From NCBI RefSeq assembly GCF_006517175.1, contig NZ_CP041186.1, positions 7,033,074 to 7,097,073 on the forward strand: a stretch of DNA of 64,000 bases. Reading direction: 5' to 3'. The DNA comes from Persicimonas caeni (lineage in GTDB: Bacteria > Myxococcota_A > Bradymonadia > Bradymonadales > Bradymonadaceae). The position numbers and the translations under genes are program-made. The notes beneath the pieces were generated by a model. The model was not told the DNA's origin. It was given only the letters and a program-made list of their open reading frames with translations, and ran no database searches. The stretch's first letter is position 1, and each line of letters begins with the position of its first letter. Below are positions 19,954-63,222 of the stretch, piece by piece.

Positions 19954-19985
19954 GAACTCCACTGCGTCAGACTGAGAGCGAACAA

Positions 19986-20109
19986 GTAAAAGAGCGAAAG
20001 AGCAAAAGAGCAAAAGCGACTCGCTTTCTTCTGGTTTTCGTTGGTCGACTCATCTGCTGTTTAGCTCTTTAGCTCTTTAGCTCATTAGCTCATTAGCTCA
20101 TTTGCTGCT
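19986..20109. repeat. Inverted octamer arrays between MoxR and DUF58 genes
   Basis: On the left, four octamers of the type GYRAAAGA/GCAAAAGA (19986-20017). On the right, six octamers of the type TAGCTCTT/TAGCTCAT (20062-20109), which are approximately the reverse complement. The right array abuts the MoxR stop codon at 20110. The 44-base centre has no strong GC hairpin, unlike the copies at 31756 and 50755. The element lies inside a predicted operon. Confidence 0.75.
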
Positions 20110-21102: not shown

Positions 21103-21167
21103 TTTTCGCTTCGTTCGAACGTCCGAGGTTAGTTTCGAGCGGTCGAGTGATCGACCGTCATCGTATG

Positions 21168-21321
21168 TTCTTGGTTCTTGGTTCTTGGTCCTTGCGAGTT
21201 GGACATCTCTGCCGGGCAGCTACGGTATCGAGTTAAACGGCAGTGGTTGCCAAAAATCATCCGCTAGCGACCGAGCTTCCAACGCCGAACTTCAAGAACC
21301 AAAAACCAAGAACCAAGAACG
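21168..21321. repeat. Inverted heptamer arrays (TTCTTGG and CCAAGAA type)
   Basis: Three perfect TTCTTGG heptamers plus one degenerate unit (21168-21195) face four AAGAACC-phase heptamers (21294-21321), which are the reverse complement. They are about 98 bases apart. The arms also contain a shorter GTTGGA/TCCAAC pair. The element fills the gap between RNase H (stop at 21390) and MoxR (start at 21102). Confidence 0.8.
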
Positions 21322-31149: not shown

Positions 31150-31755
31150 GTGGGTGAAGAAGAAAAGAGCTACAAGGGACTGACCATCGATCGTGGCAGC
31201 CGTCACTGTAAGATTCTCAATGAGGAGGGCGAGGTCGTCTTCCGAACGACGAATCTGCGCGACGCCGAGACCTACCTCGACATGATTGAGGAGAACGATC
31301 GGCTGCACCGGCTGCTCGAGGCGCGCGGTATCGCTCCGCACCGCATCTACCTGTTGGGCGCAGATCCCGAGCATCGCGGCAAGGTCAACGACAAGGGCTA
31401 TCCCGCCAAGGAAGTCGTCATCGTGGCCAAGGCCGACGACGAAGCCGTGGTGGTGCGCCACCTCGACGACGGTCGCGAAGAGATCGTCGACCTGCTCGAG
31501 CTCGAGCCCATCGAAGGCGGTGCTTACCTGCAGGCGTCGGACATCACCGACGAGACGGTGCACGTGGTCGTGCGTTACGATCGCGAGCAAGAGTCGGCCA
31601 GCGTCATCGCGCTGCGTACCGCCGAGAAGGCCGAAGAGGTCGTCGAGGATTGGGCCGAAGCCGACGAAGCGCCGGGCAGCGAGTACTCCACGGTGCTCTA
31701 CGAGACCGAGGGCGACGTCCAACTGTATCGCGCCGAAGTCTCCGTCGAGGACTGA
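31150..31755 (+). CDS. Conserved-looking hypothetical protein, 201 residues
   Basis: Hydrophilic, soluble, mixed alpha/beta protein with no signal peptide or membrane segment. The first part (YKGLTIDRGSRHCKILNEEG) and a central beta-rich stretch give no motif I recognise. I chose the GTG at 31150 because AAGAGG lies 8 bases upstream and the codons before it (back to 30913) look non-coding. The stop is followed directly by an octamer repeat array. Confidence 0.7.
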   Translation: MGEEEKSYKGLTIDRGSRHCKILNEEGEVVFRTTNLRDAETYLDMIEENDRLHRLLEARGIAPHRIYLLGADPEHRGKVNDKGYPAKEVVIVAKADDEAVVVRHLDDGREEIVDLLELEPIEGGAYLQASDITDETVHVVVRYDREQESASVIALRTAEKAEEVVEDWAEADEAPGSEYSTVLYETEGDVQLYRAEVSVED

Positions 31756-31947
31756 GCGAAAGAGTAAAAGAGTAAAAAAGTAAAAGAGCGAAAGAGTAAA
31801 AGAGTAAAAGAGTAAAAGAGTAAAAGAGTAAAAGAGTAGAAAAGCGAAAGGGCCCGGTGAGTCGTGAGTGACTCGCCGGGCCCTTTCGTTTCGAGCCTTG
31901 GCTTCAAGCTCTTTTGCTTGTTCGCTCTTTGGCTCTTTTGCTTCGCC
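31756..31947. repeat. Octamer-array element with central hairpin (copy 1)
   Basis: Twelve contiguous octamers of the type GTAAAAGA (31756-31851) follow the stop of the unknown gene, then a GC-rich hairpin, then five reverse-complement octamers of the type GCTCTTTT (31908-31947) ending just before the rhodanese stop. The same layout occurs at 50755-50962 and, without the hairpin, at 19986-20109. Confidence 0.9.
31845..31888. terminator. Bidirectional terminator-like hairpin
   Basis: A 19-bp stem (31845-31863 with 31870-31888, one G-T wobble) around a 6-base loop, built on AAAGGGCCCGG and CCGGGCCCTTT. It separates the convergent unknown gene (31150) and rhodanese gene (31954). The adjoining A-rich and T-rich octamers would supply U tracts in both directions. 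Confidence 0.85.
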
Positions 31948-31953
31948 GAGGCG

Positions 31954-32298
31954 TTAGCCGAGAATCTCAGCCTCTTCGCCTTCCGTCAGAAAGCCGGCAC
32001 GCTTCCAGGCGTAGATTCCGCCGTCGAAGTCGGCCACTTTGCGGTAGCCCATGCCTTCGAGAACGTCGGAAGCACGGTTGGAAGACTCGTCGTCGTGGTT
32101 CTTGCCGTAGACGACGATGCGCTGGTTCTTGCTAAGCTCCTGCTTGACCTGCTCAGCCAGGTTGGACAGGGGGATGTTGCGCGCACCCGGAATGTGCTCT
32201 TTGATGAAATCTTCCGGTGCGTTCACGTCGACCAGGATAAACTCCTCGTCGCCGTCCATGCGCTCTTTCAACTCAGTACTCGACATCAATCTTGCCAT
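31954..32298 (-). CDS. Rhodanese-like domain protein lacking the catalytic cysteine
   Basis: Single rhodanese fold of 114 residues: FILVDVNAPEDFIKEHIPGA and a C-terminal GGIYAWKRAG are typical. The active-site loop reads VVYGKNHDD, with Gly65 where the cysteine normally sits, so persulfide transfer is unlikely. It is probably a binding or scaffold rhodanese. The ATG at 32298 has GAGGA six bases upstream. Confidence 0.88.
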   Translation of the reverse strand: MARLMSSTELKERMDGDEEFILVDVNAPEDFIKEHIPGARNIPLSNLAEQVKQELSKNQRIVVYGKNHDDESSNRASDVLEGMGYRKVADFDGGIYAWKRAGFLTEGEEAEILG

Positions 32299-50744: not shown

Positions 50745-50754
50745 CGGCAGCGAA

Positions 50755-50962
50755 GGAGCGAAGAAGCAAGAGCGTAAGAGTGTAAAAGAGCAAAAAGAGT
50801 AAGAAAGCGAAAAAGCGAAAAAGCGAAAGGCGGCGATCCGGTGAGGGTCGCCGCCTTTACTCTTTTACTCTTTTACTCTTTTACTCTTTTACTCTTTTAC
50901 TCTTTTGCTCTTTTGCTCTTTTACTCTTTTGCTCTTTTGCTCTTTTGCTCTTTTGCTCACTT
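50755..50962. repeat. Octamer-array element with central hairpin (copy 2)
   Basis: A degenerate array of GCGAAAAA/GTAAAAGA-type octamers (50755-50828) leads into a hairpin on AAAGGCGGCGA and TCGCCGCCTTT (50826-50858). Twelve perfect ACTCTTTT/GCTCTTTT octamers plus one degenerate unit (50859-50962) follow. The right array runs into the stop codon of the BI-1 gene at 50961. It separates two convergent genes and should terminate both. Confidence 0.9.
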
Positions 50963-51680
50963 ACTCCCGAAGAAAGATCCGCAGCACATACCAGAACATC
51001 AGAGCCACCGCCGAGAACAGCGCGAGCGACGCCGCGACGTGCTGGTCGGTCTGGTAGTGATGCAGCACGTTGCCGGTGTAGTAGAGGATATAGCCGGCGG
51101 CGAGCCCGATCATGAAGACCGAGAACCAGACGCCGAGGGTGAAGCCGAAAATGATGCTCACCACGATGCCGCCCAGCGCCAAGAAGCCGGCCACCTGCAG
51201 GGCGATGCGCATGAACGAGAAGTCTTGCTTGCTGATGAATACCAGCGCGGTGAGTGCGGCGAAGACGACCAGCGTGACGATGGCCGCGGCCGGAATGGCG
51301 GTGGGCTGGACGTGCAGCCCCAGCGAGATGAGTGGCAAGAAGATGATCGCTTGGATGAGCACGTAAGCGCCCAGGCCGGCGTATTGCATCGGCTTGGAGC
51401 CGGGGTTCATCGCCCATTTGTTGGCAAAGTGGCCCACGACCATGAATAGGCCGAGCACGATCAGCCACGAGTACTGCGTGCTGAACATCAGCGGCACCAA
51501 GATCTGATCGATATTGGCGGCGAACAAAAGCGCCTCGATGCCCACCAGCGCGGCGATGGCGCCGGCGAGGTGCGAGTAGGTGCGTCGAATAAACTCGACG
51601 CGGGTGGTCACGTCGGCGTCGGCGACCGTCTGGTAGTGCCGAGCAGCCGTGGCGGCATAGCTGTTGTCATCGTAGTTCAT
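50961..51680 (-). CDS. Bax inhibitor-1 (YccA/BI-1) family membrane protein
   Basis: 239 residues, with about seven hydrophobic segments in the BI-1 arrangement (e.g. YSWLIVLGLFMVVGHFA, PAAAIVTLVVFAALTALVF). The N-terminal 40 residues are hydrophilic. Family members are putative calcium leak channels or regulators of membrane proteolysis; the function here is unknown. Start is ATG. The 278-base upstream gap to the P-type ATPase gene shows one 8-bp inverted repeat. Confidence 0.88.
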   Translation of the reverse strand: MNYDDNSYAATAARHYQTVADADVTTRVEFIRRTYSHLAGAIAALVGIEALLFAANIDQILVPLMFSTQYSWLIVLGLFMVVGHFANKWAMNPGSKPMQYAGLGAYVLIQAIIFLPLISLGLHVQPTAIPAAAIVTLVVFAALTALVFISKQDFSFMRIALQVAGFLALGGIVVSIIFGFTLGVWFSVFMIGLAAGYILYYTGNVLHHYQTDQHVAASLALFSAVALMFWYVLRIFLRE

Positions 51681-56498: not shown

Positions 56499-58592
56499 TC
56501 AGCGGCGACGAGATTTGGCCGTGGTCTCTTCGACGGCCGAATTGGTCGCCAGGTTCCACAACACGAGCTCACCGTCGGCCTGACAGATGCCGAAGAGGTC
56601 GTTGTCTTCGCCGAAATACGCCGTGATGGGCGCGTAGCTCAGCCTGTCGAAGCTCGCGACAAGCTGGCCGCTATAGCCGTGGTGGAGGTGCACCGAGCTG
56701 ACGGTGATGACGGCCACGAGCTGGCCGTCCGGCGACAGCGCCATGGAATGGGCGTTGGTCGAGGCGTCAAAGGTGGCCAGCACACCATGCGGCGCATCGA
56801 TCTGGCGAAGCTCGACGACGCCGTTGGCGCGCAGCACACCGAGCGTCTGGGCGCCGACGGCGACGGCCACGTCTTCGACGCGCTCCTTCGAGCGCACGCG
56901 CGACCAGTCGTCGTCTTTTTCGATGGCGTCTAGCCGCCCCACGTAGACGCGCCCCGACTCTGCGGCCGCCACGACGCGGTTCCCGTCGACGCCCACCTCG
57001 ACCGCGTTGATAGCCGCGCGGTCGATCGTCTCGAGCAAGGCTCGTCTCTTACCGCTGTCGCGTTCGACGGCGACGAGCCTTCCGTTGGCCTGCCCCACCA
57101 GAACGACCTCGGCGTTGGCCGCCACCGTCAATGCGGGCTCGTCGAGCGTGCCCATCGACTCGATGTCCTCGAAAGTCAGCGCTTCGCCGCTCCAAAGCTT
57201 CGCCTCCTCGTCGACGGCGACGATGCTTCCATCCGTGGCGCGCGTCGAGCAGACCACCGGAGGCAGAGACGGCCGACGCCTCTGTTGCACTCCGGGCGTC
57301 GCCGTGTTGACCCATGTGTGGTTGTCGGTGCGTTGATCGGCGGTCTGCCAAAAGGTGACCGAGCTTCGCGGGTCGAGGTCGTCCGGCAGCTCTTCGACCG
57401 ACAACCGCGACTCCATCGTCTTGGAGAGCGACAAACTGCTCACCGAGCCAGTGGTGTGTTGGGGGACGGCGTCCGCCGAAAAGACCGAGGTTTGCTCCGA
57501 CAGGTTGAAGTAATTCCCTGACTTGAAGAGGTCTTTGGAGTGCGGCGAGGCGGCAAAATCGTCATCGTCGGCATCCGACAACCCGTCGGCGGTGTCGTCG
57601 GCTTCGGCGATGGCGTAGAGCTCCAGGATGGGCACGACGTCGCTCAGGCTGCCTGGGCGATGCGGCGGCTTAGGGTTCAAGAGGTTGTAGACCAGCTTTT
57701 CGAGAGGCGCTGGGACTGGCGAGTCCCCACGCACCTTCGACAGGCGCGGCGCGCGATTGCGTCGCACGCCCCATGTGCCGGCGGTGTTCCACTCCGAAGA
57801 CGGTGGGAGACCGGAGAGCATAAAAAAGAGTAGGGCGCCGAGGCTGTAGATATTGCTGCGCTGATCGGGCTCGCCGCCGCGTCCTTGCTCGGGACTGAAG
57901 AAATGACGCGCGTCATCTTCGTCGGCCTCTCGAACCAACCGACTCAACCCGAAGTTGAGCAGGCGGACCCGCTCGGTGCCGTCGTGCGTCTGCTCGACGA
58001 TGATATTGTGGGGGATGAGTTGGCGGTGGATGAGGCCCACCGAGTGGGCTTCGCGAAGTGCTCGGGCCAACTGGGCTGCGAGTTCGCAGGCGCGGCCGAC
58101 GTCGAGCGCGATGCCGGGGGCGACCAAGGTGCGCAGCGGTGGACCGTCCACGTAGTCCATGACGACTGCGGCGCAGCCGTTGGGCAGCTCCAAGAACTCG
58201 TGAATCGGCACGACGTTGGGCTGGTCGAGGCGACGCTGCGCGCCGACTTCACGCGTCATCCGTCGCAGCAGGGTGTCACGGTCGCAGTCGAACGCCTCTA
58301 CCGGGCAAACCCACAGGGCGAAGTCGTGAGTCACGGTCAGACAACTGACTCGGTAGAGCGCAGCCTGCCCGAAGTGAGTGATCCGGCGGGTCACGAAAAA
58401 CCGCCGGTCGACCGTGCGCCCCAAGAACTGATCGTCCGACTCCGACAGCGGAGCCCAGCCATCGGTAGGCCGCGGCGCACCGCAGTCGGCGCACGACGGC
58501 TCTCGCCAGTAGCGCACCGAAGTGCACACCGAGCAGTAATTCTCTGGCATCTCCCCAGGAGCCGCCCGCATACGAGGTGAACGGTCGCTCAT
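56499..58592 (-). CDS. Zinc-ribbon pseudokinase with C-terminal beta-propeller
   Basis: A CxxC-x10-CxxC zinc ribbon (C20, C23, C34, C37) precedes a Hanks-kinase fold and a C-terminal WD40/PQQ-like propeller. The kinase fold has lost its catalytic set: FALWVCPVE replaces the VAIK lysine region, HRQ (189-191) replaces HRD, and NFG (213-215) replaces DFG. NIYSLG is also altered from DIYSLG. So it is predicted not to phosphorylate but to bind or scaffold. I chose the ATG at 58592; one at 58631 is possible. It is convergent with the ATPase gene, 25 bases apart. Confidence 0.88.
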   Translation of the reverse strand: MSDRSPRMRAAPGEMPENYCSVCTSVRYWREPSCADCGAPRPTDGWAPLSESDDQFLGRTVDRRFFVTRRITHFGQAALYRVSCLTVTHDFALWVCPVEAFDCDRDTLLRRMTREVGAQRRLDQPNVVPIHEFLELPNGCAAVVMDYVDGPPLRTLVAPGIALDVGRACELAAQLARALREAHSVGLIHRQLIPHNIIVEQTHDGTERVRLLNFGLSRLVREADEDDARHFFSPEQGRGGEPDQRSNIYSLGALLFFMLSGLPPSSEWNTAGTWGVRRNRAPRLSKVRGDSPVPAPLEKLVYNLLNPKPPHRPGSLSDVVPILELYAIAEADDTADGLSDADDDDFAASPHSKDLFKSGNYFNLSEQTSVFSADAVPQHTTGSVSSLSLSKTMESRLSVEELPDDLDPRSSVTFWQTADQRTDNHTWVNTATPGVQQRRRPSLPPVVCSTRATDGSIVAVDEEAKLWSGEALTFEDIESMGTLDEPALTVAANAEVVLVGQANGRLVAVERDSGKRRALLETIDRAAINAVEVGVDGNRVVAAAESGRVYVGRLDAIEKDDDWSRVRSKERVEDVAVAVGAQTLGVLRANGVVELRQIDAPHGVLATFDASTNAHSMALSPDGQLVAVITVSSVHLHHGYSGQLVASFDRLSYAPITAYFGEDNDLFGICQADGELVLWNLATNSAVEETTAKSRRR

Positions 58593-58774
58593 GGTCTCGT
58601 CCGCCGGGCGCAACCTCGCGCCGGGCGTCATGTGTCGCTGATTGTGTAGCTAAGTAAGCTGCGACCAGTATAGGTGGGGCACGACCCGCAATCAATGACA
58701 AAGGCGCAGGCCGGCGGCTGCCTCTGAGACCGCGGCAATCAGCTTGTATGGGAAGGCCGAGCGACTGGTTCACG

Positions 58775-58802
58775 TTGAATGATCACGGTGCGCGTGTTAA
58801 AT
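58775..58802 (+). promoter_or_regulatory. Candidate promoter of the tRNA gene
   Basis: TTGAAT (58775-58780), a 16-base spacer, then TTAAAT (58797-58802). The tRNA would begin about 9 bases after the predicted start site. The spacing and match are good for a stable-RNA promoter. Confidence 0.5.
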
Positions 58803-58818
58803 ACTCCGCGTGTTTTGA

Positions 58819-58891
58819 GGCCCCGTAGCTCAGTTGGATAGAGCAACAGATTCCTAATCTGTAGGTCGTGCGTTCGAATCGCACCGGGGTC
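58819..58891 (+). tRNA. tRNA-Arg (anticodon CCU)
   Basis: Folds as a full cloverleaf: 7-bp acceptor GGCCCCG/CGGGGTC, D-stem GCTC/GAGC, anticodon stem ACAGA/TCTGT with loop TTCCTAA (anticodon CCT in DNA), and T-arm GTGCG-TTCGAAT-CGCAC. CCA is not encoded. It would decode AGG. A strong terminator follows at 58923. It sits at the left border of a lower-GC island. Confidence 0.95.
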
Positions 58892-58922
58892 ACTAAAGAA
58901 AACTTAGGTGCTGTAAGGGTTT

Positions 58923-58954
58923 AAGCCCTCTGGTTAACGCCGGAGGGCTTTTTT
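58923..58954 (+). terminator. Rho-independent terminator of the tRNA gene
   Basis: AGCCCTC(T)GG pairs with CC(G)GAGGGCT, a 10-bp stem with one wobble around a TTAACG loop, followed by TTTTTT. Confidence 0.9.
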
Positions 58955-58990
58955 GTACCCTTTCGAAATCGCACGAAATCGGGGGTGAGG

Positions 58991-59020
58991 TGTAACAAGA
59001 AGTGTAACAACGTGTAACAA
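58991..59020 (+). repeat. Three TGTAACAA direct repeats
   Basis: Perfect TGTAACAA copies at 58991-58998, 59003-59010 and 59013-59020 (12 and 10 base spacing), upstream of the first island gene. The same core recurs many times at 60012-60374, so both are probably bound by one protein. Confidence 0.8.
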
Positions 59021-59106
59021 GCCCTTCCGGGACGCCGGGAATAGCCCTCTACCGGTAGACGCTGCATCTACATCCCACGTCGATACCGCCGCTTTGCGGA
59101 GGCGGT

Positions 59107-59440
59107 ATGACAACCGAAGAAAGCAGCACGTTAACGCTTGCAAACATTCAGATGCGTCACGAGGGCAAGGTCTTTAGACCGGCTCCCGGCTATGCGAACT
59201 ATTGGGTTTCGAAAGTAAGGCGATGTTTTAAGCACGAAAGGAAAGCGACCGAAGCGAATGAACTTGAGTGATAACGGGCAAGGATACAAGCGGCTGACGC
59301 TGTATCAGGACAAGGCACGACAAATCGGCGGTTCGTTGCAACGGTGGTACACGATTTATCTACATCAAGTGGACGCCGAAGAAGGAGCGCCGACGCCGCT
59401 GCCGGATCTTGATTCGCTGATGGTAGATATCGAAGACTAA
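59107..59440 (+). pseudogene. Split NUMOD4-like protein (two overlapping frames)
   Basis: A first frame (59107-59271, 54 codons) carries FRPAPGYANYWVSKVRRCF, resembling the NUMOD4 DNA-binding module of phage and mobile endonucleases. A second frame starts at ATG 59258, overlaps the first by 14 bases, and continues with SDNGQGYKRLTLY, the expected second half of the same module. It ends at 59440 without any HNH active site. It may be a frameshifted remnant or two coupled pieces. Codon use and GC look lower than flanking genes. Confidence 0.6.
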
Positions 59441-59449
59441 GAGGTAAAC

Positions 59450-59929
59450 ATGACGGAACGACTAAAGAAGATAGCGGCTAGGGCCGATTTGCGGCCTACA
59501 CGGGAAGAAGAGGTTTGGTACATCTTGGGATGGCTTCGATCCCGTTGGGATGGCTGGAACGGCTTTTGGGGCAACCGAAATCTGTTCTTCAAAGCCCACG
59601 AAAACAGCGAGCTTTTTGTGCGGACCGAACCCGAAGATTATGACGACCTCATTGATCATGACGAATGGCCGATAGCCGTTCTGATGGTGTCTGATCGGTA
59701 CGACACGGTAACGCTCGATATCGTCGAGGTTGTAAGGTCGGAATGGCGCAAGGGGATAGCGTATTCGATGCTCAAGCCTTTCGTGGAAGCTATGGACGCC
59801 GGGGAAATCGAAGCTCTTGAGGCCGATGCCGCAACCGACGAGGGTCTAGCGTTGCTGCACAAGCTGGGGTTTACCAAGATCGAACGACGGGACAAATACG
59901 AATACCTACCTAAAGACGACCAAGCGTAG
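59450..59929 (+). CDS. GNAT-like acetyltransferase of the island
   Basis: 159 residues. The C-terminal half has the GNAT pattern: VVRSEWRKGIAYSMLKPF (acetyl-CoA binding loop region), followed by a strand and LLHKLGFTKIE. The N-terminal half is hydrophilic and unrecognised. It starts 9 bases after the NUMOD4 remnant and ends just before a terminator. Substrate unknown; a weak match to the usual Q/RxxGxG/A motif keeps confidence moderate. Confidence 0.6.
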   Translation: MTERLKKIAARADLRPTREEEVWYILGWLRSRWDGWNGFWGNRNLFFKAHENSELFVRTEPEDYDDLIDHDEWPIAVLMVSDRYDTVTLDIVEVVRSEWRKGIAYSMLKPFVEAMDAGEIEALEADAATDEGLALLHKLGFTKIERRDKYEYLPKDDQA

Positions 59930-59954
59930 CGCATCCGACTTGCGGCCGATTCGG

Positions 59955-59983
59955 AGGGCTGGCCCGGTGCGGCTGGCCCTTTT
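59955..59983 (+). terminator. Terminator after the GNAT gene
   Basis: AGGGC pairs with GCCCT at the base and the stem extends about five more base pairs with two wobbles, followed by TTTT. GGCTGGCCC occurs twice within it. Confidence 0.6.
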
Positions 59984-60377
59984 GTGTTGGGTCACAGTCC
60001 GGGGAGCGCGCTGTTACAGATCGTTACGGCTGTTACAAGCTAGGGCGGGTTTGTAACAGAATTTGTAACAGCAAAAATCGGGGCGTGGAGGGCTTGCAGG
60101 GGCGAGTTTTAGGGGGCTGTTAGAAATGTTACGAAAATATTTATTAAAAATAATAACCCTTCCTCCGAGCCGTCACACACCCGGATACACCTTCATACCC
60201 TAGATGTTTTGTCTACCGTCAGATCTTGTAACATTTGTATACCCTAGATGTTTTGTCTACCGTCAGATCTTGTAACATTTGTAACAGTAAGTCGTAACTC
60301 TTTATGGATGCTAGGGAATCTGCTGTTGCAGGATCTGTAACAGATGGGCTTTTGTCCGTAACGGGGCTGTAACAGCT
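59984..60377. other. Gene-free region dense in TGTAACA motifs, candidate iteron/origin or operator region
   Basis: About 390 bases without a supported gene. TGTAACA or its reverse complement TGTTACA occurs ten times (60012, 60031, 60052, 60064, 60127 with one mismatch, 60227, 60271, 60280, 60336, 60368). An A+T-rich stretch (60127-60170) and a 44-bp tandem repeat lie among them. This looks like a plasmid or phage replication origin or a dense operator, but no Rep protein is visible in the window. Confidence 0.6.
60195..60282 (+). repeat. Two perfect 44-bp tandem copies
   Basis: The 44-base unit starting ATACCCTAGATG and ending CATTTGT is repeated exactly (60195-60238 and 60239-60282). Each copy contains one TGTAACA motif. 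Perfect identity suggests a recent duplication or a maintained binding array. Confidence 0.95.
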
Positions 60378-60851
60378 TCATTCATTTGGATCGCCACCTT
60401 CGATAAGCGTCAGCTCAACCTTCTTGGCTGGCAACGGCTGGAGGTCGGGGTCAATGCCGGTGAGCTGTATCATGCTTTCCCGCATCTTTTCAGCGGTATC
60501 GAATTCGGCTCGGGCTAGCTGCACACCAACCGAGCCGAACATCACCAGCGTTGCGGGGTGTTCAACTTGGATCGATGCAACTTCACTGAAATTGACGAGG
60601 ATATCTTTGCCTATGTTTACCCACCCGGTCTTCTTTGCTGACGTCTCGGGTGGGTTTTCTCTGAGGTAGACGAGCGCAGCAACTTCGTTGTCTTCCGTGT
60701 AGGACTTACCCACCTTGTCGACGTAATACATCGAGTGACCGCCAACATCGGTACCAAAGAGCATGACCACCTCCCGCTCCCTTGGAAGCTCAGTGGGGTC
60801 TACGTCTCTTGTGGCGATTACGTCTCTTCCGAACAAAAACTGTACCTGCAT
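60378..60851 (-). CDS. Hypothetical island protein, 157 residues
   Basis: Soluble, hydrophilic alpha/beta protein with no motif I recognise. The ATG at 60851 follows AAGGAGAG by seven bases; upstream codons to 60923 are probably untranslated. It ends beside the TGTAACA region, on the opposite strand from neighbours, and its divergent promoter area is shared with 60992. Confidence 0.7.
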   Translation of the reverse strand: MQVQFLFGRDVIATRDVDPTELPREREVVMLFGTDVGGHSMYYVDKVGKSYTEDNEVAALVYLRENPPETSAKKTGWVNIGKDILVNFSEVASIQVEHPATLVMFGSVGVQLARAEFDTAEKMRESMIQLTGIDPDLQPLPAKKVELTLIEGGDPNE

Positions 60852-60930
60852 GGTGTCTCTCCTTTTGTTTGTTGCCTTCCAGCGCAACCCCCTTAACGAT
60901 CTCACGAATTGCCACGAAAGCAAGCCCCGC

Positions 60931-60959
60931 TTGACATGCGTTCAGTGATCTGCTCGGAT
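60931..60959 (+). promoter_or_regulatory. Candidate promoter of the 60992-61803 gene pair
   Basis: Perfect TTGACA (60931-60936), a 17-base spacer, then TCGGAT (60954-60959), a three-of-six match. Confidence 0.4.
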
Positions 60960-60991
60960 CCCCCGGAACTCACGATAGTAAGGAGGGAAAA

Positions 60992-61270
60992 ATGGCGCGT
61001 TACGTAATTACTCGGCAGGCAAATAGCGACGCAGGCGAGGTCTTCTTCGTCTACGAAGTATTCAAGGCCCACGATGGACGTTTCAATGTCGGCGAACCGT
61101 CATGGTGGAATTGGGGCAAAGTAGCCCGAACGCTTCTTGATGGTCACTGGGTGCAGACCGGCAGGGAAGAGGACTCGGCGATTAAGTTCGGGGCGGATGT
61201 TAAAGTGGTATTGCGCACCGAAACCAACGAGACGATTTCGGATAATTTGGCGAATTTGCCGGAGGGTTGA
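60992..61270 (+). CDS. Small island protein preceding a HEPN-like gene, 92 residues
   Basis: Unknown soluble protein with strong ribosome site AAGGAGGG six bases before the ATG. Its stop is 5 bases before the HEPN-like ATG (61276), and an alternative TTG start of that gene overlaps its stop. Pairing with a HEPN gene suggests an antitoxin or partner role, but the family is not recognised. Confidence 0.7.
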   Translation: MARYVITRQANSDAGEVFFVYEVFKAHDGRFNVGEPSWWNWGKVARTLLDGHWVQTGREEDSAIKFGADVKVVLRTETNETISDNLANLPEG

Positions 61271-61275
61271 AGGGG

Positions 61276-61803
61276 ATGCACGAGAGCCTGAAGAGCATCG
61301 GTCGCCACATGTTCGACTTTTCGAAGCACTTGATAGAGGTCGAATGGCTGGCAACAGTCCCGTGTTATGAAAGGGATCGCCTTGCAATCACGGCTGTAAG
61401 GTTTGCCCATGCTGGCGAGATCCTGATCAAGTCGTGTATTGCCAAGGAGCACCCGCTCTTGATCTTTTCGAAGTTGCCAAAGCCGCAACACGCGGAGGGG
61501 GACCTTCTGGATCTACCGGCTCTTTTCGAACAAGGGCGCACGCACAATTACAGCCAGTTGCCTAATGTTCTTTGGGCAGCAACGGGATTCGAGCTGGAAC
61601 GTCGCGACGTTTACGACGACTTCGGAAAGCTGCGCAACGCTATCCAGCATTTTGGCATCCCGGACTACTCGTTTGATGAGTATATGGATTCCGTTGACGA
61701 CTATTACGTGCATGTGTTGAGGCCACTAGCACGGGAGTTCTGGAACGACTCCTTTTCCTTGCCGACGCGAAAGACTACCGACTTAGATTACGTACCAGAA
61801 TAG
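61276..61803 (+). CDS. HEPN-like protein with RNAIQH motif
   Basis: 175 residues from the ATG at 61276. All-helical, with RNAIQH (R120-x4-H125), the Rx4-6H motif of HEPN ribonucleases, in the right C-terminal helix position, preceded by a helix reading LIKSCIAKEHPLLIF. HEPN proteins are often toxins or phage-defence RNases. No nucleotidyltransferase partner is present; the overlapping 92-residue gene may be the partner. A TTG at 61267 is an alternative start. Confidence 0.65.
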   Translation: MHESLKSIGRHMFDFSKHLIEVEWLATVPCYERDRLAITAVRFAHAGEILIKSCIAKEHPLLIFSKLPKPQHAEGDLLDLPALFEQGRTHNYSQLPNVLWAATGFELERRDVYDDFGKLRNAIQHFGIPDYSFDEYMDSVDDYYVHVLRPLAREFWNDSFSLPTRKTTDLDYVPE

Positions 61804-61822
61804 AAACCAGAACAAACCACCC

Positions 61823-61860
61823 GCACCCACCGGGGACCCCGCCAAAGGGTGCCCGTTTTT
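61823..61860 (+). terminator. Terminator after the HEPN-like gene
   Basis: GCACCC (61823-61828) pairs with GGGTGC (61847-61852), followed by CCGTTTTT. The internal loop contains GGGGACCCC. Confidence 0.5.
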
Positions 61861-61868
61861 GATCCACG

Positions 61869-62198
61869 TCATTCAGCGTGTTCGAGCACCCAATCCGACC
61901 AGCGTTTTAGCTCCAAAGCCAGCATACGCCGCTGCTCGTGCGGTCGGATAAGCAGGTCGGCCCAAACTTCACGAGCATCCTCTTCGGCAAACACGGGCCG
62001 CTTCAGCACGTTTTCGGCATTGACTTCAACAATTCGGTCATCGCTGAGCACGTCCAGATACTGAAGCGCCCACGTCGACCATTTTCCGAGGGCTTCGGCC
62101 AACTGAAGCCGTTCGTCACTATCGTGAAGCGAAAGCCAATTGAAGAGCTGGTCCCATTCTTCGGCGGAGCCGGGTTCACAATCCTTAACGTCCAACAT
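61869..62198 (-). CDS. Hypothetical acidic protein, 109 residues
   Basis: Acidic, Trp-rich amphipathic helical protein (WDQLFNWLSLHD, WSTWALQYLDVL). No family recognised. Its start at 62198 lacks a clear ribosome site. It lies between the HEPN-like gene and the IS3 element, on the opposite strand to HEPN. Confidence 0.6.
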   Translation of the reverse strand: MLDVKDCEPGSAEEWDQLFNWLSLHDSDERLQLAEALGKWSTWALQYLDVLSDDRIVEVNAENVLKRPVFAEEDAREVWADLLIRPHEQRRMLALELKRWSDWVLEHAE

Positions 62199-62383
62199 TT
62201 TACTACCGTAGTTTGGTTTGTCTGAATGTCCGTGAACTCGAATCTATCGAATTCGCGAAATTCGTCAAAAGTCCGTCGATCAAAGTTCGGTCTACCAACC
62301 AAAATCTCGGTAATCCGTTTGTGAATCTCCTTATGTAGCACGGGGCACCGGTTGCCCCTTCGCATGTCGAAAGACGCATAAGC

Positions 62384-62409
62384 TGACGTTGCTCTGGTTT
62401 CGCGGACAC
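62384..62409 (+). repeat. IS3 terminal inverted repeat, left
   Basis: Begins TGACGTTGCT and shares TTTCGCGGACAC with the right end. Confidence 0.85.
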
Positions 62410-62413
62410 GCAG

Positions 62414-63222
62414 TTAGGCCTCTTCGGCCATCTCGAACTCGGCGGGTGTCATATACCCCAGCGCCGAGTGTCTTCGCTTTCGATTGTAGAAGACCTCGAT
62501 GTAATCGAAAATCTCCCGTCTTGCCGCTTCTCAAGTCGCAAAATCCATCCGATGAATCGACTCGGTCTTGAGCGTCCCGAAGAAGCTCTCCATCGGCGCG
62601 TTGTCCAGGCAATCACCTTTGCGACTCATCGAAAACGCATGCCGCACTTCTCAAGCAGCTTCTGGTACTCGTAGCTGGCATACTGGCTCCCACGGTCCGA
62701 GTGATGCAACAGGCCTTCGGGCGGCTTTCGATTGAGCACTGCCATCGTGAGCGCGTCGATGCACAGCTGCTTGGTCATCCGTTGGTCCATCGACCAACCG
62801 ACAATCTTGCGGCTGAACATGTCGATGACCGCCGCCAGATACAGCCATCCCTCTCGGGTGGGCACGTAGGTAATGTCCGCCAGCCACACCTGATTCGGCC
62901 TGTCGACCTCGAACTGACGCTCCAAAAGGTTGGGCGCCACCGGAAGGTCGTGACTCGAATTCGTGGTGCGCTTGTACTTACGCTTGCGGTCGGCACGGAT
63001 GCCGTTCTCCCGCATGATACGCGCCACACGGTTTCGGCCGACACGCCATCCACGTGCCCGAAGCTCTTTGTGCACCCGAGGGCTTTCATAGGTGCCGCGG
63101 CTTTCCACGTGGACCTCGCAAATCTCTTCGAGCAGCTTTTCGTTTTGCTTGTCACGCCTGCTCGGCTCGCGCTTTCGCCAGTCGTAGTAGCCGCTGGTGG
63201 AAACGCCCAGGACCTCGCACAT
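62414..63222 (-). pseudogene. IS3 transposase orfB, inactivated
   Basis: DDE transposase of the IS3 type: helix-turn-helix-like region, then LADITYV (first Asp) and [11 protein letters not shown] (second Asp). One T is missing in a T run near 62630, shifting the frame after RFR, and a TGA interrupts the restored frame at DFAT. The third acidic motif, [11 protein letters not shown], is after the frameshift. So the enzyme is predicted non-functional. Confidence 0.85.

Follow-up and report, generated by a model that had tools for sequence, protein, structure and literature searches.

Between two convergent genes of Persicimonas caeni, a predatory bacterium, near-identical octamers run from a stop codon to a hairpin and are faced, on the other side of that hairpin, by reverse-complement octamers. 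The question that this locus raises is whether the facing arrays belong to the terminator or are a product of the way in which short tandem repeats arise and persist in this genome. The window, by which we mean the whole 64,000-bp stretch of DNA that was analyzed, lies within a single contig of 8,047,206 bp; the P. caeni YN101 genome has been published as one chromosome of 8,047,306 bp with 63.8% GC (PMC7188933). The following features make up the locus.

31150-31755, plus strand: 3' part of the gene ending at the array, encoding a conserved Bradymonadia protein
31754-31850, plus strand: purine-rich arm, 12 octamers, consensus GYRAAAGA / AAAGAGYR
31842-31891, no strand: central hairpin with a 22-bp stem and a 6-nt loop, probable bidirectional terminator
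31892-31907, no strand: 16-bp non-repeat spacer from the hairpin to the second arm
31908-31942, minus strand: second arm, pyrimidine-rich on the plus strand, about four degenerate reverse-complement octamers
31954-32286, minus strand: convergent rhodanese-domain gene (PF00581, E 1.5e-18)

An earlier note, made from the sequence alone, described 12 near-identical octamers between the stop codon and the hairpin, and this description holds: the array at 31754-31850 comprises 12 registers, seven of which are exactly GTAAAAGA, the others being GCGAAAGA, GTAAAAAA, GTAGAAAA or GCGAAAGG, and the stop codon itself (TGA, 31753-31755) overlaps the first unit. The hairpin is present as well, with a stem slightly longer than had been stated (22 bp, including two G-T pairs, rather than 19 bp) and overlapping the last octamer unit of the first arm. 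A second arm also exists, but the claim that it extends from the hairpin to the stop codon of the convergent gene is only roughly right, since it starts 16 bp past the hairpin and the rhodanese stop lies 11 bp beyond its end. This arm comprises about 4.4 octamers with a 74% match, and the two arms are accordingly unequal, 12 octamers against about four degenerate ones. The three-unit octamer pattern has 24 matches in the 64-kb window compared to 0.00 in 100 shuffles, and the locus folds as RNA at -92.4 kcal/mol compared to -51.5 for shuffled sequences (z -10). The conserved protein encoded upstream of the array has orthologues in 22 other genomes, and a Pfam search with it (219 aa) found no family. 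The central hairpin is probably a bidirectional terminator; its tail is only partly T-rich and falls short of a T-run rule, which is why a simple terminator scan made no call.

Two further octamer loci are located in the same window.

19975-20016, plus strand: purine arm of the second locus
20048-20106, minus strand: pyrimidine arm of the second locus, which lies between co-directional MoxR and DUF58 genes
50749-50829, plus strand: purine arm of the third locus, starting 4 bp past a stop codon
50826-50858, no strand: central hairpin of the third locus
50856-50966, minus strand: pyrimidine arm of the third locus, 14 octamers, reaching the end of the convergent Bax1-I gene

Genome-wide, the octamer pattern has 194 matches compared to none for a reversed control. 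The pattern search, together with a 1.66-Mb sample, yielded 33 octamer loci, two of them coding and 31 non-coding (array-like stretches within ORFs at L195 and L197 look coding and were excluded from the locus counts). A genome search for such arrays had been proposed in the earlier note, and it finds them at non-random positions: where the neighbouring genes are known (30 non-coding loci), 17 loci are convergent, compared to 14% of all intergenic regions (p 5e-8), and none is divergent, compared to 19% of all intergenic regions (p 0.002), and a stop codon adjoins most of the arrays. Both arms are present at 20 loci, and in all 20 the purine arm comes first and the pyrimidine arm second (p 2e-6). 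At the seven co-directional octamer loci with two arms, one arm precedes the start codon of a neighbouring gene instead of following a stop codon. The middle hairpin is only weak at several loci, the centres differ, with no central sequence shared between loci, and other two-armed loci fold far better as RNA than their centre alone. We give next to no credence to an assembly artefact: repeats are error-prone in assemblies and the genome analyzed falls 100 bp short of the published length, but unit variants and arm lengths differ both between and within loci, and long-read and Illumina data were combined to close the YN101 genome (PMC7460792).

The same architecture is built from units of other sequence. 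The decamer GGGTTACTWA forms about 27 groups in the P. caeni genome, with inverted pairs at the following positions.

L056 17059-17197, L089 15731-15891, L117 19445-19659, L119 13919-14034 and L212-L230: decamer inverted pairs

The G-rich arm comes first in 17 of the 17 two-armed decamer groups, many decamer arrays overlap the last codons of flanking genes, with the stop codons lying within the decamer unit, and a canonical G-quadruplex motif is found in 14 of 15 decamer loci. Given that such a motif is found in none of 20 octamer loci, quadruplex formation is not required by the architecture. Smaller families (with units such as CGTGAT, GGTTGAGT, GGTTCTT and CGCAAAGG) also occur in inverted pairs, the repeat units of the P. 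caeni families spanning 6-10 bp. In the 1.66-Mb sample, an inverted array pair is present in 42 intergenic regions, a few of which are weak or inside miscalled coding sequence; such pairs were found in 13 of 106 convergent regions compared to 29 of 704 others (p 0.0015), and across all unit families the G-rich arm is first in 32 of 41 pairs (p 4e-4). The suggestion that the arms are more than random microsatellite is borne out, and the inverted layout at gene-end hairpins is systematic in both main families (20/20 octamer and 17/17 decamer two-armed loci).

Several other repeats were noticed in the course of this analysis. In the window, four copies of GTTCTTG (21167-21194) face four copies of CAAGAAC (21293-21320) about 100 bp apart; this inverted family also occurs at L082 (13079/13193), and its neighbours are co-directional or divergent. 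A nearly perfect (GGGGGTTT)8.6 array at L076 (17188-17256) is telomere-like and quadruplex-like, and related arrays of the G4T3 type, mostly single-armed, are present at L056, L060, L069, L120, L127 and L133. A word resembling CGCTCGCTTCGCTCGCT adjoins decamer arrays at L212, L213, L218, L219 and L228, which suggests composite dispersed elements. Finally, a 44-bp unit forms a perfect tandem duplication at 60195-60283 of the window, in a 4-kb stretch without called genes (58518-62625).

The occurrence of one octamer unit at about 30 loci with a fixed polarity would be compatible with the octamer being a binding or uptake word (a DNA uptake sequence, or the site of a nucleoid or RNA-binding protein), in which case the arrays would be multiple binding sites. 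However, single octamers outside arrays are not in excess, with 12 per Mb of intergenic sequence compared to 12-28 per Mb for permuted words, and several unrelated unit families share the architecture, and we consider a binding or uptake word very unlikely.

The octamer pattern has no match in 38 close relatives and, in a stricter form, none in 378 other Myxococcota genomes, from which the decamer is absent as well. The same convergent gene pair is present in 12 or more relatives; nearly all of these have a GC-rich hairpin between the two genes, in most cases preceded by an A-tract and followed by a T-tract, and none has arrays there. Given that the gene pair of the relatives has the hairpin without the arrays, the arrays are a recent addition to what appears to be an old terminator. 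An integral role of the arrays in the terminator is not supported on the same grounds, a bidirectional hairpin without arrays in relatives with the same gene pair being the outcome that the earlier note had named in advance as speaking against it; the weak middle hairpin of several octamer loci does not support it either. Taking short intergenic arrays of any unit, 70 of 155 have an inverted partner in P. caeni, compared to none of 10 in Bradymonas sediminis, the closest relative as judged by the conserved protein (p 0.005), and one of six in the relative G005 (p 0.002), the rate outside P. caeni resting on these two genomes with the same sampling.

A separate possibility is that selection maintains the arrays as a barrier to transcription from both sides. 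Read-through into the opposite gene would be stopped by the structured purine arm together with the hairpin, and then by an exit arm that is rich in C, poor in G and suited to Rho loading, with cytosines every 8-10 nt. The gene-end position, the convergent excess, the lack of divergent octamer loci and the very stable folds are all consistent with such a barrier, and the composition of the exit arms (C 0.28 and G 0.08 at octamer loci, C 0.33 and G 0.11 at decamer loci) is the one sought for Rho sites (PMC6407284). In Xanthomonas, G4-forming repeats coincide with transcript starts or stops more frequently than control repeats do (PMC4692102). However, the C-rich exit is an automatic consequence of a G-rich entry arm, the hairpin alone suffices for the same gene pair in the relatives, most gene ends of the P. 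caeni genome have no array, and complementarity between the two arms of a locus is not maintained. Selection for a barrier thus appears rather unlikely, and any role of the arrays as terminator or insulator is hypothetical.

The likeness of the two arms was compared within and between loci. Two octamer arms from one locus resemble each other no more than arms taken from different loci do (p 0.92), and two decamer arms from one locus resemble each other less (cosine 0.07 compared to 0.29 permuted, p 6e-5). The longest perfect complementary run of the decamer is 15 bp within loci and up to 38 bp between loci, a significant difference; the respective values for the octamer, 18 bp and up to 59 bp, do not differ significantly, and this family shows the same trend of avoidance below significance (p 0.08-0.16). 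The arm lengths are without significant correlation. Unmatched arms speak against both the copying of arms and selection for perfect pairing in an RNA hairpin, the second of which was rejected for this reason although the folds are stable. Copying would be expected if template switching at the hairpin transferred one arm onto the other and so maintained the inverted repeat. Template switching is known to create and repair hairpins (PMC8794818) and agrees with the inverted geometry, but for the present arms it is contradicted by both their dissimilarity and their uncorrelated lengths, so that we hold it to be very improbable indeed; it could still be the origin of the initial inverted pair at each locus. 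The unmatched arms fit slippage combined with the loss of perfect palindromes. SbcD, part of the usual palindrome-cleaving nuclease, and MutS are both present in the P. caeni genome, and on this account neither the loss of that nuclease nor a loss of mismatch repair was accepted as the cause.

Spread of the arrays by a mobile element, either as REP/REPIN units via Y1 (RAYT) transposases or as MITEs, would be in line with the 26 Y1 (RAYT-like) transposase matches in P. caeni, compared to 0-8 in relatives, and with a 165-bp MITE that was found inside decamer arrays.

L088 19259-19423, L120 18194-18358, L216 1431-1595, L219 1231-1395 and L219 3303-3467: copies of the 165-bp MITE

Nevertheless, no octamer or decamer match was found in the 20 Y1 regions examined (L244-L263), many of which are flanked by a REP of their own, GGTGTCTGACAC, and the octamer loci have no shared central sequence and, by eye, no target duplication around the arrays. 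The MITE has terminal repeats TACTACTTGGTCA / TGACCAAGTAGTA and CTAA/TTAG flanks, and several of its copies lie inside decamer arrays, the unit of which contains the CTAA/TTAG target. Given that it interrupts the arrays, the MITE is a later guest. Dispersal of the arrays by either type of element is exceedingly improbable.

We consider it probable, with some reservation, that the locus belongs to a lineage-specific set of short tandem repeats, dispersed over the intergenic space at gene ends and enlarged there by replication slippage. Each family keeps one polarity, its purine-rich or G-rich strand being the sense strand just after the stop codon and running toward the terminator, so that two arrays which share a terminator are opposed to each other and form an imperfect inverted repeat. 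This polarity may be tied to transcription. Judging by the arrays of one P. caeni strain, each arm would grow independently by slippage. Loci with perfectly complementary arms would be removed by a hairpin-cleaving nuclease (SbcCD-like) or by deletion, a palindrome filter that was noticed after the fact. Any effect of the arrays, such as extra structure around the terminator and some two-sided barrier to read-through, would be at most a passive by-product. Slippage alone leaves unexplained the recurrence of one unit at about 30 unrelated loci and the strict polarity, and the arms before start codons at the seven co-directional octamer loci also speak against this reading. A quite unlikely alternative would account for the strict architecture that several unrelated units of 6-10 bp have in common: one active process in this lineage, such as a polymerase or a reverse transcriptase at work where transcription stops, would write or amplify tandem units at the 3' ends of genes, always in the same polarity, and an opposing filter would keep the arms of a locus from becoming a perfect palindrome.

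Among known repeats, the cyanobacterial STRR heptamers are short, intergenic tandem units with several unit families. The arrangement has a precedent in Xanthomonas, where short tandem arrays paired in inverted orientation have already been described close to stop codons: GGGAATC heptamers (Rehm et al., 2015) form dispersed tandem arrays on the sense strand near stop codons, are rare between divergent genes, and make up 70-75 inverted convergent pairs in each genome, for which no function was found (PMC4692102). With the GGGAATC and GGGGA(C/T)T heptamers of Xanthomonas and Nostoc (PMC4692102), the P. caeni arrays share short head-to-tail units, many non-coding sites, a place beside stop codons on the sense strand and scarcity between divergent genes, and with those of Xanthomonas also the inverted convergent pairs (20/20 octamer, 17/17 decamer). 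They differ from these G-rich, quadruplex-capable heptamers in that the octamer is A-rich and without a quadruplex motif, which the decamer has, that several unit families occur in one genome, some with very long arms, that the arrays flank a terminator hairpin, and that decamer arms of one locus avoid matching. The 7-bp TAACTGA direct repeats of Beggiatoaceae, Cyanobacteria and Bacteroidetes (MacGregor, 2015; PMC4679880) likewise consist of one short unit, directly repeated at many intergenic sites per genome, but are mostly located just before start codons, in 2-6 copies and with one inverted case only. A GC-rich hairpin, found in this gene pair across the family, is shared with bidirectional intrinsic terminators, whereas the P. 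caeni tail is T-rich only in part, and a strong GC core is missing from several array loci. The extragenic position, palindromic arrangement and many copies resemble those of REP/BIME/REPIN elements and their RAYTs, but the octamer loci have no conserved palindrome, the P. caeni RAYTs have a different REP, and octamer and decamer copies do not flank RAYT genes (0 in 20 Y1 regions). Unlike a DNA uptake sequence, single octamer copies are not over-represented genome-wide, and terminal inverted repeats with target duplication, as in MITEs, are confined to the separate 165-bp element, with none seen by eye at the octamer arrays. The architecture is already known from Xanthomonas, and the P. caeni arrays are a variant of it with new units. 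They provide a second, unrelated lineage for inverted short-repeat pairs of the Xanthomonas type, with several unit families in one genome and neither main motif in sequenced relatives. The comparison separates what is general in this architecture, namely gene-end position, strand polarity and inversion, from what is not, namely unit sequence and quadruplex formation, and the mutual avoidance of the decamer arms suggests that palindromes are limited at the level of the DNA and not by RNA pairing.
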